DNA of 20,070 nucleotides, taken from a virus. This document shows positions 472 through 18,509 of the stretch, piece after piece. The notes beneath the pieces were generated by a model. The model did no database searches and had not been told where the DNA came from. It saw only the letters and a program-made list of their open reading frames with translations. Position numbers and translations under genes: made by a program. The stretch spans positions 1 through 20,070 of IMG/VR virus record IMGVR_UViG_3300009537_000233. One strand, 5' to 3'. Position 1 is the stretch's first letter. Each line of letters begins with the position of its first letter.

Positions 472-545
472 TATTTGTCTCCTTAATATCTTTATCAGGA
501 TATAGCTGGGTTAAACTCTTTTTCCTGTGATCCCCTATAGAGAGA

Positions 546-574
546 AATATAGGAGGTTAAGTAAAAAGTGTCTA
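546..574 (-). promoter_or_regulatory. Sigma70-type promoter candidate
   Basis: On the minus strand, TAGACA (574-569) and TATATT (551-546) are separated by exactly 17 nt, each matching the sigma70 hexamers in 5 of 6 positions. The expected start would lie about 7 nt downstream, close to CTATAGGGG. It points at the internal-protein gene starting at 471 and lies in the longest stretch without a long gene. This is a pattern match only. Confidence 0.4.
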
Positions 575-578
575 ACAA

Positions 579-635
579 TTACCCCAGATAGTCCTTTTGA
601 CTTCCTAATTCTTGGATGACTAAAATCCTCAGCAT
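579..635 (-). other. 18-aa open frame, possible fragment
   Basis: An ATG at 635 opens an 18-codon frame (MLRILVIQELGSQKDYLG) ending in TAA at 581-579. The frame stays open upstream of the ATG for about a dozen codons (PDDPDCDKSSE), so it may be the tail of a broken gene rather than a gene. No clear SD is present. It overlaps, in another frame, the end of the possible frameshifted reading of the 36-aa ORF. Coding status is doubtful. Confidence 0.15.
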
Positions 636-683
636 TTCACTGCTTTTATCACAGTCGGGGTCGTCAGGTTATACCCAGCATTA

Positions 684-794
684 TCACGACGATGCGTCCC
701 CTCTTTTTTTACTTGCTGCCCTAAAGGCAATCTTCAGGATTGTTTTTTGAGTACCTGCAAGCAAGCTCATACAAGTTGCCATGTTGTTTTTCAT
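684..794 (-). CDS. Small 36-aa ORF with SD inside a hairpin loop
   Basis: ATG at 794 to TGA at 686-684. The product begins MKNNMATCMSLLAGTQ and ends in a basic tail KKRGDASS. Its SD (GGAGG) lies 8 nt upstream, in the loop of a perfect 7-bp hairpin. Near the 3' end it crosses a run of seven A (minus strand, 710-704). A one-base shift there would extend the product to a Cys-ending protein stopping at 631-629. I do not recognise the product. The strong SD is the main reason to list it; the frame may be a decayed gene. Confidence 0.35.
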   Translation of the reverse strand: MKNNMATCMSLLAGTQKTILKIAFRAASKKRGDASS

Positions 795-795
795 C

Positions 796-816
796 TTTGC
801 CCCCTCCAAGGGCAAA
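796..816 (-). promoter_or_regulatory. Hairpin presenting the SD of the 36-aa ORF
   Basis: On the minus strand TTTGCCC (816-810) and GGGCAAA (802-796) form a perfect 7-bp stem around the loop TTGGAGG. The loop holds the SD, and the stem ends one base before the ATG at 794. A shifted pairing of CCC with the G-run would bury the SD instead, so the element could switch translation. No U-tract follows, so it is not a terminator. Confidence 0.4.
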
Positions 817-825
817 TGAACAAAA

Positions 826-933
826 TTACTTCACTTCTTCTACTAAAGGTTCTCCATCTACATCACTAGAACTTAATTCTTTAAACTTTGCATCTTCAAA
901 CACTTCATGTGGAACCCCAAATTCGTTATACAT
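826..933 (-). CDS. Small 35-aa ORF sharing the C-terminal tail of the upstream gene
   Basis: ATG at 933 to TAA at 828-826, with a strong SD (GGAGG, then TAAAG, ATG). The product starts MYNEFGVPHEVFEDAK and ends DVDGEPLVEEVK. The upstream 324-aa protein ends DTDGEPLVEELK, and the underlying DNA is identical over 25 nt. The rest of the small protein does not resemble the 324-aa protein. It is acidic, with no membrane segment or known motif. The good SD, clean stop and in-frame duplicated tail favour real translation; the function is unknown. It sits just downstream of a structured-RNA candidate (956-1024). Confidence 0.5.
   Translation of the reverse strand: MYNEFGVPHEVFEDAKFKELSSSDVDGEPLVEEVK
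835..859. repeat. 25-nt direct repeat, copy 1
   Basis: Identical over 25 nt to 1037-1061, the two copies being 202 nt apart. On the coding strand it encodes DGEPLVEE near the end of the 35-aa ORF. Confidence 0.85.
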
Positions 934-955
934 CTTTACCTCCGCTTAGGTTAAA

Positions 956-1024
956 TGGGCTTGAGGTGCCGTCTGTGAAGCGGCACATCAGGCTTTTAAG
1001 GCTTTATCAAGCCCCTCAAGCCCA
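956..1024 (-). ncRNA. Three-way-junction RNA element candidate
   Basis: Arms 956-966 and 1014-1024 form a perfect 11-bp inverted repeat (TGGGCTTGAGG and its complement). Inside, one hairpin occupies 1000-1013 (stem GGCTT/AAGCC, 4-nt loop) and abuts one arm. A second occupies 967-985 (stem TGCCG/CGGCA) and abuts the other arm. A 14-nt linker (986-999) joins them, so all three helices could meet flush in a junction. It starts 4 nt after the stop of the 324-aa gene and ends 22 nt before the next ATG. There is no U-run, so a simple terminator is unlikely. A 3'-end stabiliser, processing site or regulatory leader are options. The fold was read by eye. Confidence 0.45.
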
Positions 1025-1027
1025 AAT

Positions 1028-2002
1028 TTATTTAAGTTCTTCTACTAAAGGTTCTCCATCTGTATCAAATCCAACAATAAGAAAATTCCTTCCTGCTTTA
1101 GAAACTTTTTGACCTACCTTAAACTTAGAACTACCTTTGACTCCTCTATCTGACCAAACAGCTTTAGCCCCCCTGTCTTTAAGATCATTAACAAGAGCAT
1201 TAATAAGGATTTCATTTTCTTCGTCGTTCTTTGCAACAGAAGGGAGCGTTTCAATAAATCTCTCAATATCTTTATCTGTTGGACGAACTTCACCTGCTGC
1301 CTTAGCTACTGTTGTAGCGAAAGCTTTAATTCTGCTTTGAAAAGTATTAACCGCTGGTGAATGTCCAAACTTCCCCGAAATAATTGCTTTTTGCCCTGCA
1401 ATCCTCCCAGTTACCCCTCTCTTCCCTATTCCTGAAACATTAGAAGCTTCTTCTCTTGCTGCTCTAAAAGAATCCACTAAAGAATTAATTTGATTGTCTA
1501 ATTCTCCTATTTCAACTTCTCTCTTTTCTTGCGCTGCTGTTTTCTTAACACGTTCAAATCCTTCTGGATTCCCAAATCTATCTAATTTTGAAGGGATAAA
1601 ATCTCCAACTTTAGGCTCTTTGCTACTTTGTTCTACACCTAAATCAACCTGCAAAGGAATCTTAGGAGTAACATTCGCTATAGTAGGCTCAAGAAATTGA
1701 TCTACTGACTTAACTCCTCGAAGCTTATTCGCCAAATCCATATCACCAACAGAAATCGCTGCATCAACAGCTTTCCCTCGTCTTAATAAATCATTCAAAG
1801 GAGAATCTTTCCCTCTCTCTTCAATCTGACTATTAATATTCTTTATCTGAGCCTGAGCTAAAAGATTATTTAACTGTCTATCCTCTCTCCCTTGCTTTGC
1901 TTGAATAAACGTATTAACAGCCGTCCCTATTGCATTTATATCGGCATTAGCCTTTTGTCTTTCCATCTCTTTGAATTTTAGTAACGTTTCTAATACAGCC
2001 AT
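1028..2002 (-). CDS. Putative internal (ejection) virion protein, 324 aa
   Basis: ATG at 2002 follows a good SD (AGGAG, then ATAGAT, ATG); the stop is TAA. The protein is largely helical and charged, with a Gln/Asn-rich N-terminal third (residues about 1-70, likely coiled coil), a Pro-containing linker near 105-150, and a helical C-terminal half containing GIGKRGVTGRIAGQ. It has no signal peptide or transmembrane span and no enzyme motif I can name. It lies between the glycine-zipper protein and the partial third internal-protein gene, a typical place for DNA-ejection proteins in podoviruses. Its last 12 residues (DTDGEPLVEELK) recur at the end of the next small ORF through a 25-nt DNA repeat. 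The role is inferred from position and composition. Confidence 0.6.
   Translation of the reverse strand: MAVLETLLKFKEMERQKANADINAIGTAVNTFIQAKQGREDRQLNNLLAQAQIKNINSQIEERGKDSPLNDLLRRGKAVDAAISVGDMDLANKLRGVKSVDQFLEPTIANVTPKIPLQVDLGVEQSSKEPKVGDFIPSKLDRFGNPEGFERVKKTAAQEKREVEIGELDNQINSLVDSFRAAREEASNVSGIGKRGVTGRIAGQKAIISGKFGHSPAVNTFQSRIKAFATTVAKAAGEVRPTDKDIERFIETLPSVAKNDEENEILINALVNDLKDRGAKAVWSDRGVKGSSKFKVGQKVSKAGRNFLIVGFDTDGEPLVEELK
1037..1061. repeat. 25-nt direct repeat, copy 2
   Basis: Second copy of the 25-nt repeat at 835-859, here encoding DGEPLVEE just before the stop of the 324-aa gene. The similarity weakens but continues past both stop codons. Confidence 0.85.
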
Positions 2003-12371: not shown

Positions 12372-12400
12372 TAAAATGGGGGCCGATATTCTCAGCCCCC
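12372..12400 (-). terminator. Intrinsic terminator behind the capsid gene
   Basis: Eight bases after the MCP stop the minus strand reads GGGGGCTGA-GAATA-TCGGCCCCC, a 9-bp stem (one G-U) with a 5-nt loop, followed by ATTTTATT. The stem is very GC-rich against an AT-rich background. The U-tract is interrupted, so readthrough into the glycan block is likely to be partial. Confidence 0.75.
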
Positions 12401-12407
12401 AAATCCG

Positions 12408-14294: not shown

Positions 14295-14360
14295 CACGCA
14301 TTTAGTTTATCCTCGTCTTGGGAGACGAGTGGTTTCACGCATTTAAAGCCTTGGGAGGCT
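14295..14360 (-). repeat. Two-copy hairpin leader of the scaffold-capsid unit
   Basis: In the minus-strand transcript, AGCCT-CCCA-AGGCT (14360-14347) is followed by TAAATGCGTG (14345-14336). Next come CTCGTCT-CCCA-AGACGAG (14329-14312) and again TAAATGCGTG (14304-14295), and then the SD. Both hairpins have the same CCCA loop with closing T/A pairs, and both are followed by the same 10-mer. The two units are about 33-41 nt apart. The leader probably folds into two small stems that precede capsid translation; function unproven. Confidence 0.6.
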
Positions 14361-14373
14361 GATCATTAAACCC

Positions 14374-14415
14374 AAAAAAAGAAGCCAACCCTGTGCCTAG
14401 CTAGGATTGGCCTCT
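14374..14415 (-). terminator. Intrinsic terminator before the scaffold leader
   Basis: The minus strand reads AGAGGCCAATCCT (14415-14403), a 10-nt loop, AGGGTTGGCTTCT (14392-14380), then an unbroken T-run ending at 14374. The 13-bp stem has G-U wobbles that pair only in the minus-strand RNA, which fixes the orientation. It closes the TerL-portal-glycosyltransferase-98-aa unit. Confidence 0.8.
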
Positions 14416-14447
14416 ATATAACTTCTGGGACAAACTAATTGATCAGA

Positions 14448-16531: not shown

Positions 16532-18509
16532 ACTTCTTTCCTTGTACTGGCGTTAATAAAGCCTCTTTCCTGATATCCATATCATCACTTAACTTCCTAA
16601 CCCCTAACTGCTCCCTTAAAGACTTGTCCTTCTCCTCTTCAACCTGCATTAATGCCTGCTGAGATTCTTGCTGTAACTCTTCTTCTGACTTAATGAGTAA
16701 CTGGGCCATCCTAGGGTCTAAGTCCTTGTAAACAGCCTCTAAAAGCTCTTTTTGCTTAATTAACGGATTCTGGAAACCTATATTATAAGCAAACATTGAC
16801 TTCTGTAATCTTGCCTGAGGAGTGCTGTTATCTAACCTACCATTAGGAACCATATTAAACTTCCCCTGTACTTCATCACGGGATATCCTTTGCGGAGGCT
16901 TACCTGTAATAAAAATTTCTTCCTCTTCACTCCCATATTGGTTATAAAGAGCATCTATCTGGTAATAAACAAAAACCATCTGTTGCTGAAAAACCTGTAA
17001 ATCTAAACTCTGCGCCTGATTTTGTAATCCAACAATCGTTTCAATTTCAGCCTTAGTCTTTTTCCCTCTCTCTCCTGTCCCTGGTAAATCTGTCTGTCCG
17101 CCTAACCCTGACGTTATCTGCCCTAACCGATTATCAGACCAGCTCTTTAAGTATTGAGCCTGCTGAAACAACGAACCTTGACTTGGATTGCCATAAACCC
17201 TTGTCTCATAATCAGAAGTAGGCCCATTCGTCTCCGTAAACTCCCCAGGCAAAAACCTTCTATTTCTAGGATTAGAAATAACCCCCTTACGTGCCACCCT
17301 CTCAGGCATATTTAAAAGTGTCCCATTATCTATCGCCTGATTAACCGCCGTACTTATACCATTCTGGAAATCTTCATCCAACGAAGGGAGTCCTCTCGTT
17401 GAATAAAAATTATCCCCCGTCAACTCCCTCTTTACTTGAACATACGGCCACATCCCATGATCATATGGTAACTCAATAAACCTTAAAATAGACTCTGGTG
17501 AAGCATCCGGCCATGTAACTATACACCTCTCTTTTATCCCATCACCATTAACGTCATACCAGCAACACGTTTCATGTAAAAGCACTAAGTCATCACTGAA
17601 AAATCTGTCTGAATTATCCTTCCCTCCTTTACCAGCCCATGACTCTATATTTGAATCATTGAACTCTTCATACTTACCATCATCCATAGCAATCTTAAGA
17701 TCATTCTTAGTCATCCATAAATTGCAGTAATCTATAAACCGTGCGTCATTTAAGTCTTTTGTGTCTATAGGGATAACCAAATCTTTCAAAGGATTTAAAG
17801 CCACAACCTCAGGCCTGTCATCTTTGACCTCAAGCAAACTGATATCAATAACCTTCTTCCCCTTACGGAAAGACTCAACGGCTTTATTAATAGCATTCAC
17901 ATTCTCATCAAAACTTAAGTCAATCCTAAACTGTTCTTCGATAATCTTAAATATCTGTTCATCCCCAACCCTAGGATCAAATATTGCTTCAAGGACATCT
18001 TCTGGGTACTCATCTAAATCTATCTTTACTGAATAACTCCTTGTTGAATACTTCCAGATGATCCGAAACACTGTTTGACCAGGAGACCCTAGAATCATAT
18101 CTACCCCGTAATTATAAGGCTTAAATAACTGTACCTGTGTCCTTAACCGCCAATCAAACAAATCCTCCCTTTTCCTTGCCGGTTCAACATCTTCCGGCCC
18201 AAACGGGACAAACGTTACTACAGGACTTACACTAAAAGCTAAATTGACATAACTAGGCTTTACTCTAGCGATATTTGTATCCATCACTGGAATAACATAA
18301 TTGGCTGCATTAGGCCATGGAGTAACCTTCTTACGTCTGAACCCATACCTTAACCGATCTAATCTATCAACAGCATCTTGAAAACGTATCGTGTCATTAC
18401 TCGCCTCATCAATGTCTGTCTTTAACCCAACAACAAAAGACCTTAATTCATTTGTAATATCAAGGCTCTTTAAATCATCTAAATTCTCTGGATGTGCATT
18501 GTTTCCCAT
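16518..18509 (-). CDS. Portal protein, 663 aa
   Basis: ATG at 18509 shares a base with the terminase stop (TAATG), so translation is probably coupled. The start region (NELRSFVVGLKTDIDEASND) leads to RLDRLRYGFRRKKVTPWPNA (48-67) and NYVIPVMDTNIARVKPSYVN, typical of the large podoviral portals. A middle region (FYSTRGLPSLDEDFQNGIST) and a long Gln-rich helical C-terminus (ELQQESQQALMQVEEEKDKS) follow. The length suits portals with a C-terminal barrel. Twelve copies would form the DNA channel at one capsid vertex and dock terminase and adaptor. Its 3' end carries the start signals of the CgeB-like gene. Confidence 0.8.
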   Translation of the reverse strand: MGNNAHPENLDDLKSLDITNELRSFVVGLKTDIDEASNDTIRFQDAVDRLDRLRYGFRRKKVTPWPNAANYVIPVMDTNIARVKPSYVNLAFSVSPVVTFVPFGPEDVEPARKREDLFDWRLRTQVQLFKPYNYGVDMILGSPGQTVFRIIWKYSTRSYSVKIDLDEYPEDVLEAIFDPRVGDEQIFKIIEEQFRIDLSFDENVNAINKAVESFRKGKKVIDISLLEVKDDRPEVVALNPLKDLVIPIDTKDLNDARFIDYCNLWMTKNDLKIAMDDGKYEEFNDSNIESWAGKGGKDNSDRFFSDDLVLLHETCCWYDVNGDGIKERCIVTWPDASPESILRFIELPYDHGMWPYVQVKRELTGDNFYSTRGLPSLDEDFQNGISTAVNQAIDNGTLLNMPERVARKGVISNPRNRRFLPGEFTETNGPTSDYETRVYGNPSQGSLFQQAQYLKSWSDNRLGQITSGLGGQTDLPGTGERGKKTKAEIETIVGLQNQAQSLDLQVFQQQMVFVYYQIDALYNQYGSEEEEIFITGKPPQRISRDEVQGKFNMVPNGRLDNSTPQARLQKSMFAYNIGFQNPLIKQKELLEAVYKDLDPRMAQLLIKSEEELQQESQQALMQVEEEKDKSLREQLGVRKLSDDMDIRKEALLTPVQGKKYAPN

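Follow-up and report, generated by a model that had tools for sequence, protein, structure and literature searches.

Positions 956 to 1,024 of the virus record IMGVR_UViG_3300009537_000233, analyzed here over its full 20,070 bp (the window), hold a three-way junction whose fold is real, striking, and far beyond chance. The record belongs to a tailed phage for which PHROGs recognized the large terminase, portal, and major capsid genes, while all further gene functions used here were assigned from position. The virion genes of the window all sit on the minus strand, and this is therefore considered the transcribed strand. In the sense direction, the junction follows a 324-aa virion-type gene and precedes an open reading frame (ORF) of 35 aa, the placement that a preliminary description of this DNA had given it. 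The junction may be an intercistronic structure marking a messenger RNA (mRNA) boundary, within a lineage-specific insert of the late (virion) operon, a plausible reading that is held here with slightly more doubt than confidence. On the sequences compared, it is not a conserved element or motif of the phage family.

Structure and stability of the junction

The minimum free energy of the minus strand was -34.4 kcal/mol (z -4.94), and none of 200 dinucleotide shuffles folded as well, so the comparison with shuffled sequence that had been proposed for this element came out in its favor. With both strands considered, no 70-nt stretch of the window was more stable than the junction (-34.6, the next being -27.4), and the lowest 70-nt energy among 12 shuffles of the whole window was -28.3. 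Its geometry agrees with the 11-bp perfect outer stem and two flush hairpins described before: perfectly complementary 11-nt arms (TGGGCTTGAGG/CCTCAAGCCCA) surround two hairpins that abut the arms, together with an internal linker. The sense fold gives the outer helix 10 pairs, the eleventh being in competition with hairpin 1 (Table 1). The reported absence of a U-tract holds for both strands over positions 950-1030.

The preliminary description had further argued that flush geometry is rarely accidental, which can be retained only in part. Geometry alone is not so rare, as a looser flush descriptor (outer stem of at least 9) had nine matches in 622 kb of fetched DNA, but the stability and the perfect 11-bp stem are unusual. 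Flush three-way junctions with an outer stem of at least 11 bp arose at 0.007 per shuffled 20-kb window (300 shuffled windows), and none of those 300 windows contained a flush three-way junction at -33 kcal/mol or lower. It should be noted that neat geometry and stability do not imply conservation.

Distribution of the junction and its site

A family of uncultivated phages whose gene order matches that of the window was reached only through a 524-aa tail-type gene, among viral and genome contigs (records other than the window are designated by L numbers). Phage and plasmid collections searched at the protein and DNA levels returned nothing useful for the insert or for the 324-aa and 524-aa genes, and the 324-aa protein as a query had no match. 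Twelve relatives cover the site, and in 10 of them no gap separates the homologue of the 324-aa gene from the gene that follows, the two being adjacent or overlapping. No element could fit there, so the junction belongs to a lineage-specific insert. Besides the window, whose insert measures about 555 bp, only L006 (243 bp) and L018 (298 bp) have one at this position, and the small ORFs differ in each. The L006 insert contains a strongly folded three-way structure (92 nt, -32.8 kcal/mol, z -4.77) that has no sequence likeness to the junction of the window. Within the same insert (L006:16648-16863), a 44-aa ORF with a Cys-x2-Cys ... Cys-Pro pattern is directly followed by a three-way structure at 16783-16863 (z -4.8).

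A covariance model of the junction (R1) found no copy in the full records of the relatives, though a model of a single sequence reaches close copies only, and pattern scans for the junction identified no homologue. The covariance search proposed earlier for related phages thus found the junction to be absent, rather than its stems to be broken or compensated, and the suggestion of a new or recurring phage RNA motif is not supported. Close relatives that carry the insert of the window could exist. There was no gathering match to Rfam in the window, only sub-threshold chance matches, none of them at 956-1024. Searches of Rfam at gathering and relaxed thresholds over the region of the window, L006, six relatives, and the pre-scaffold element described below returned a single transfer RNA (tRNA). 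This tRNA gene (L005:9113-9185, minus strand, Rfam 64 bits) occupies, on the opposite strand, the gap between a glycine-rich protein gene and the 324-aa homologue. A search for tRNA and transfer-messenger RNA genes in the window found none. One of the relatives, L007, was deposited as 'Candidatus Parcubacteria bacterium' (JAIFWG010000003.1, isolate name viral-cat), which could mean that a virus was misbinned or could point to the host.

Proposed role at an mRNA boundary

Stabilizing or boundary stem-loops between cistrons occur in phage and bacterial operons. The junction resembles them as a stable structure directly past a stop codon in an operon, without a U-tract, and differs in that it is branched, is not repeated in the genome, and has a role that is predicted. 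What was found here is a stable structure in the intergenic gap of one operon, as would be expected of a boundary element. Its stability is unique in the record, the stop codon of the 324-aa gene (1030-1028) lies 3 nt ahead of the outer stem, and the flanking genes and their strand are consistent with a single operon. In sense order the 324-aa gene is followed by the junction, an AT-rich spacer, a Shine-Dalgarno sequence (GGAGG) outside the junction stems, and the 35-aa ORF. As the related phages lack the junction, any such boundary structure is probably lineage-specific, present or absent along with its insert, and the three-way fold of L006, the one other relative with such a fold at this site, counts in favor of the reading.

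A survey of gaps between genes revealed that strong stem-loops are common in this phage family, with several other gaps at z -4 or lower. A strong hairpin stands directly 3' of the capsid gene in 16 of the 18 cases examined (among them two near-identical pairs), with arms that are not conserved in sequence. Since both the gaps and the capsid genes commonly have them, hairpins at gene ends are a normal device in the family. In the window, a strong hairpin occurs directly 3' of the major capsid gene (12377-12401, minus strand), followed by TTTTATT.

As a boundary structure, the stable junction would block 3'-to-5' exonucleases and/or slow the polymerase, and would thereby protect the 3' end of the long virion-gene mRNA and separate it from the small ORFs downstream. 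While terminating at the stop codon of the 324-aa gene, a ribosome would occupy the 5' outer arm, and the junction would thus be able to form only in the interval between ribosomes. The junction implies no specific ligand or protein, and a part in RNA stability, processing, or translation control, as suggested in the preliminary description, is possible.

Several observations weigh against a boundary structure. The plus strand folds nearly as well as the minus strand (-33.7 kcal/mol, z -3.91, 1 of 200 shuffles), and because of this near equality sequence alone does not show that RNA is the active form; folded as single-stranded DNA, the stretch reaches -21.0 (z -5.16). In L006, another fold surpasses the three-way one when a longer stretch is considered, and the part of the L018 insert that was folded gave no strong structure (z -1.46). 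Covariation could not be measured because there is no homologue to align.

A possible DNA-level origin

A serious rival is a scar at the DNA level, in which recombination or the mobile insertion of foreign small-ORF DNA between two virion genes would have made both the palindrome and a 45-bp direct repeat, and the fold would have no RNA function. Although considered unlikely, this explanation has to be weighed, as it is compatible with the direct repeat, with an insert that is lineage-specific, and with a palindrome that is symmetric between the strands. The two repeat copies (87% identical) bracket the junction and one of them begins inside the outer stem, the insert is missing in most relatives, and the inserts of L006 and L018 bring other small ORFs to the same site. 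The G+C content also stands out (0.55 in the junction and 0.40 in the insert, compared with 0.37 in the window), and the stretch folds on both strands and as DNA. Conversely, neither the window nor the relatives contain a second copy of the junction, and a target-site duplication at the stem ends is not clear. The repeat is coding and may therefore be a gene-end duplication independent of the junction. The sole exact match to the outer stem in viral contigs (L042) belongs to an unrelated phage, where it forms a hairpin with a U-tract, and is attributed to chance or a terminator.

A conserved RNA ahead of the scaffold gene

The preliminary description had proposed a compact three-way-junction RNA between two genes. 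The phage family does use such an RNA, but at a distance of 13 kb from the flagged junction, where the conserved example precedes the scaffold gene. It was first seen in the gap survey as a non-coding element between the 98-aa-type and scaffold-type genes of L011 and L017, which are 87% identical over the element and have a compensated outer stem there. In the relatives, the region ahead of the scaffold gene contains short hairpins with a YCYCAA loop followed by NUAAA(C)UGYG, and the full architecture consists of an outer stem around two 4-bp YCYCAA-loop hairpins with UAAA(C)UGYG linkers, and a third hairpin of the same type ahead of the Shine-Dalgarno sequence. The sequence of the outer stem varies by phage while its complementarity is kept.

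A 27-position model of the hairpin unit (R2), derived from 17 units with a fully compensated stem, matched 18 of the 20 family records with E-values no higher than 7e-4. These matches include records that took no part in model building, directly upstream of the scaffold gene (L043 and L044). A model of the whole junction (R3), built from only two members, recovered nine others out of sample (E 8e-14 to 8e-4), with most true members at 22-52 bits. When ten members were aligned, 98% of the cells paired, 13 of the 15 pairs had changed on both sides, and the covariation score was 0.97, where shuffles gave 0.23 and slid partners no more than 0.08, although fitting this alignment to the model biases it in the model's favor. 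Independent support for the pre-scaffold RNA comes from the E-values obtained out of sample and from arm controls limited by position. The RNA has no Rfam match and no DNA match in the phage collection. Should it be functional, it would be a new leader RNA for the head-assembly genes of uncultivated phages, and it is a candidate for the control of scaffold or capsid expression or for a protein-binding operator.

The window has a diverged copy of the pre-scaffold RNA, outside the flagged junction, in which the outer arms (14446-14440 and 14365-14359, CUGAUCA/UGAUCAG) enclose a terminator-like hairpin. One canonical unit (14360-14334, AGCC UCCCAA GGCU UUAAAUGCGUGAA) stands just before the scaffold-type gene.

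The flagged junction could in principle be a diverged, displaced copy of this RNA, such that one structured-RNA system would operate at two points of the late operon, though this is improbable. Both have the same topology, with an outer stem, two hairpins, and an A-rich linker starting UUAAA, and the copy in the window is itself diverged. In Smith-Waterman comparisons on the sense strand, the element of L044 was the best of 11 (AAAGCCTTAAAAGCCTGA-TGTGCCGCTTCAC against AAAGGCTTTAAA-CTTGAGTGTGCCTCATCAC), scoring 93 as opposed to only 60 on the plus strand. Its likeness reached p 0.004 against structure-preserving shuffles, also without the outer stem, but the comparison is post hoc, made after the resemblance had been seen. 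The models do not recognize the junction, for which R3 gave 8.5 bits (E 1.8 in the window), a score comparable to chance hits and short of most true members, and R2 gave 7.7 bits. The conserved YCYCAA loops and the second linker (UAAAACUGUGAA) are also missing. Membership of the flagged junction in the pre-scaffold RNA is thus not established by the sequence comparisons.

Terminators, processing sites, and other known elements

A degenerate or factor-dependent transcription terminator or attenuator of the late operon appears quite improbable. As with intrinsic (Rho-independent) terminators, a G+C-rich stem follows a gene, here directly past the stop codon, and hairpins with U-tracts do occur elsewhere in the operon (12401-12377 after the capsid gene, and 14366-14435). 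Unlike such terminators, however, the junction is branched and has no U-tract on either strand, it was not listed by the terminator scan, and ORFs with good ribosome-binding sites continue directly downstream in the same direction.

Packaging RNA of the phi29 type is a phage RNA that contains a three-way junction. The flagged junction differs from it in having no Rfam match and in lying far from the packaging genes, and the phage has a conventional large terminase. Three other candidates were rejected. An integron attC site was dropped because the plus strand has GTTAAAT at one end without an RYYYAAC partner at the other. Readthrough of the stop codon of the 324-aa gene would meet a TGA in the same frame after three codons. 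For a hammerhead, GAAA is missing after the next helix despite the presence of CUGAUG, and Rfam gives no signal.

Processing by RNase III, in the manner of T7 or lambda, is very unlikely. Several RNase III target sites are known in the RNAs of lambda, T7, and T3 (PMC5371410), and the junction shares with those of T7 and lambda that it is a structured intergenic element of phage mRNA. Coaxial stacking of the outer stem on hairpin 2 could provide a near-continuous helix of about 18 pairs. The minimum in Escherichia coli is a duplex of 22 nt (PMC5371410), whereas the helices here have 10-11, 6, and 8 pairs, so that the longest falls below the ~22-bp minimum and the stacked total also stays under 22. 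A classical site is unlikely as the duplex is too short, with the reservation that the threshold is that of E. coli and may not be that of the host.

Neighboring genes and the insert

The 35-aa ORF closes in codons nearly identical to those that end the 324-aa gene (DGEPLVEE[L/V]K). In a pattern search, the tail DGEPLVEE[V/L]K was found to close a C-terminal segment on other viral proteins (L033, L034, L037, and L038), and none of these four has a junction after a tail of this type. As the tail is shared with the C-terminal segment of other viral proteins, the 35-aa ORF resembles a relic or a gene end that was duplicated; its start, searched as a degenerate DNA pattern, had 0 matches. Beyond the 36-aa ORF (Table 1) there is more sequence without assignment, followed by the virion-type gene at 1-471.

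Table 1. Coordinates of the junction, its surroundings, and the pre-scaffold RNA
Feature	Record	Coordinates	Strand	Remarks
Three-way-junction structure	window	956..1024	-	outer stem 1024-1015 / 965-956
Hairpin 1 of the junction	window	1014-999	-	6 pairs, loop GAUA
Linker of the junction	window	998-987	-	12 nt in sense fold
Hairpin 2 of the junction	window	986-966	-	8 pairs and one bulge
324-aa gene upstream of the junction	window	1028..2002	-	virion/internal-protein type by position; syntenic homologues in relatives
Lineage-specific insert between 324-aa gene and virion-type gene 1-471	window	472..1027	-	about 555 bp
35-aa ORF after the junction	window	826..933	-	good Shine-Dalgarno GGAGG at 943-939
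45-bp direct repeat, copy A	window	821..865	-	3' end of 35-aa ORF
45-bp direct repeat, copy B	window	1023..1067	-	3' end of 324-aa gene; overlaps outer stem by 2 nt
36-aa ORF (MKNNMATCMSLLAG...)	window	684..794	-	sequence reading
Diverged pre-scaffold RNA copy	window	14334..14446	-	outside flagged element
Pre-scaffold RNA	L011	475-539
Pre-scaffold RNA	L017	538-601
Pre-scaffold RNA	L009	855-922
Pre-scaffold RNA	L007	1046-1112
Pre-scaffold RNA	L008	1030-1101
Pre-scaffold RNA	L010	1021-1087
Pre-scaffold RNA	L019	661-731
Pre-scaffold RNA	L002	1023-1091
Pre-scaffold RNA	L022	4141-4206
Pre-scaffold RNA	L044	1616-1683	-
Pre-scaffold RNA	L043	2738-2783	-

The Shine-Dalgarno sequence of the 36-aa ORF (GGAGG) lies in the loop of a perfect 7-bp hairpin with arms at 816-810 and 802-796 (UUUGCCC-UUGGAGG-GGGCAAA), possibly a translation-control arrangement.
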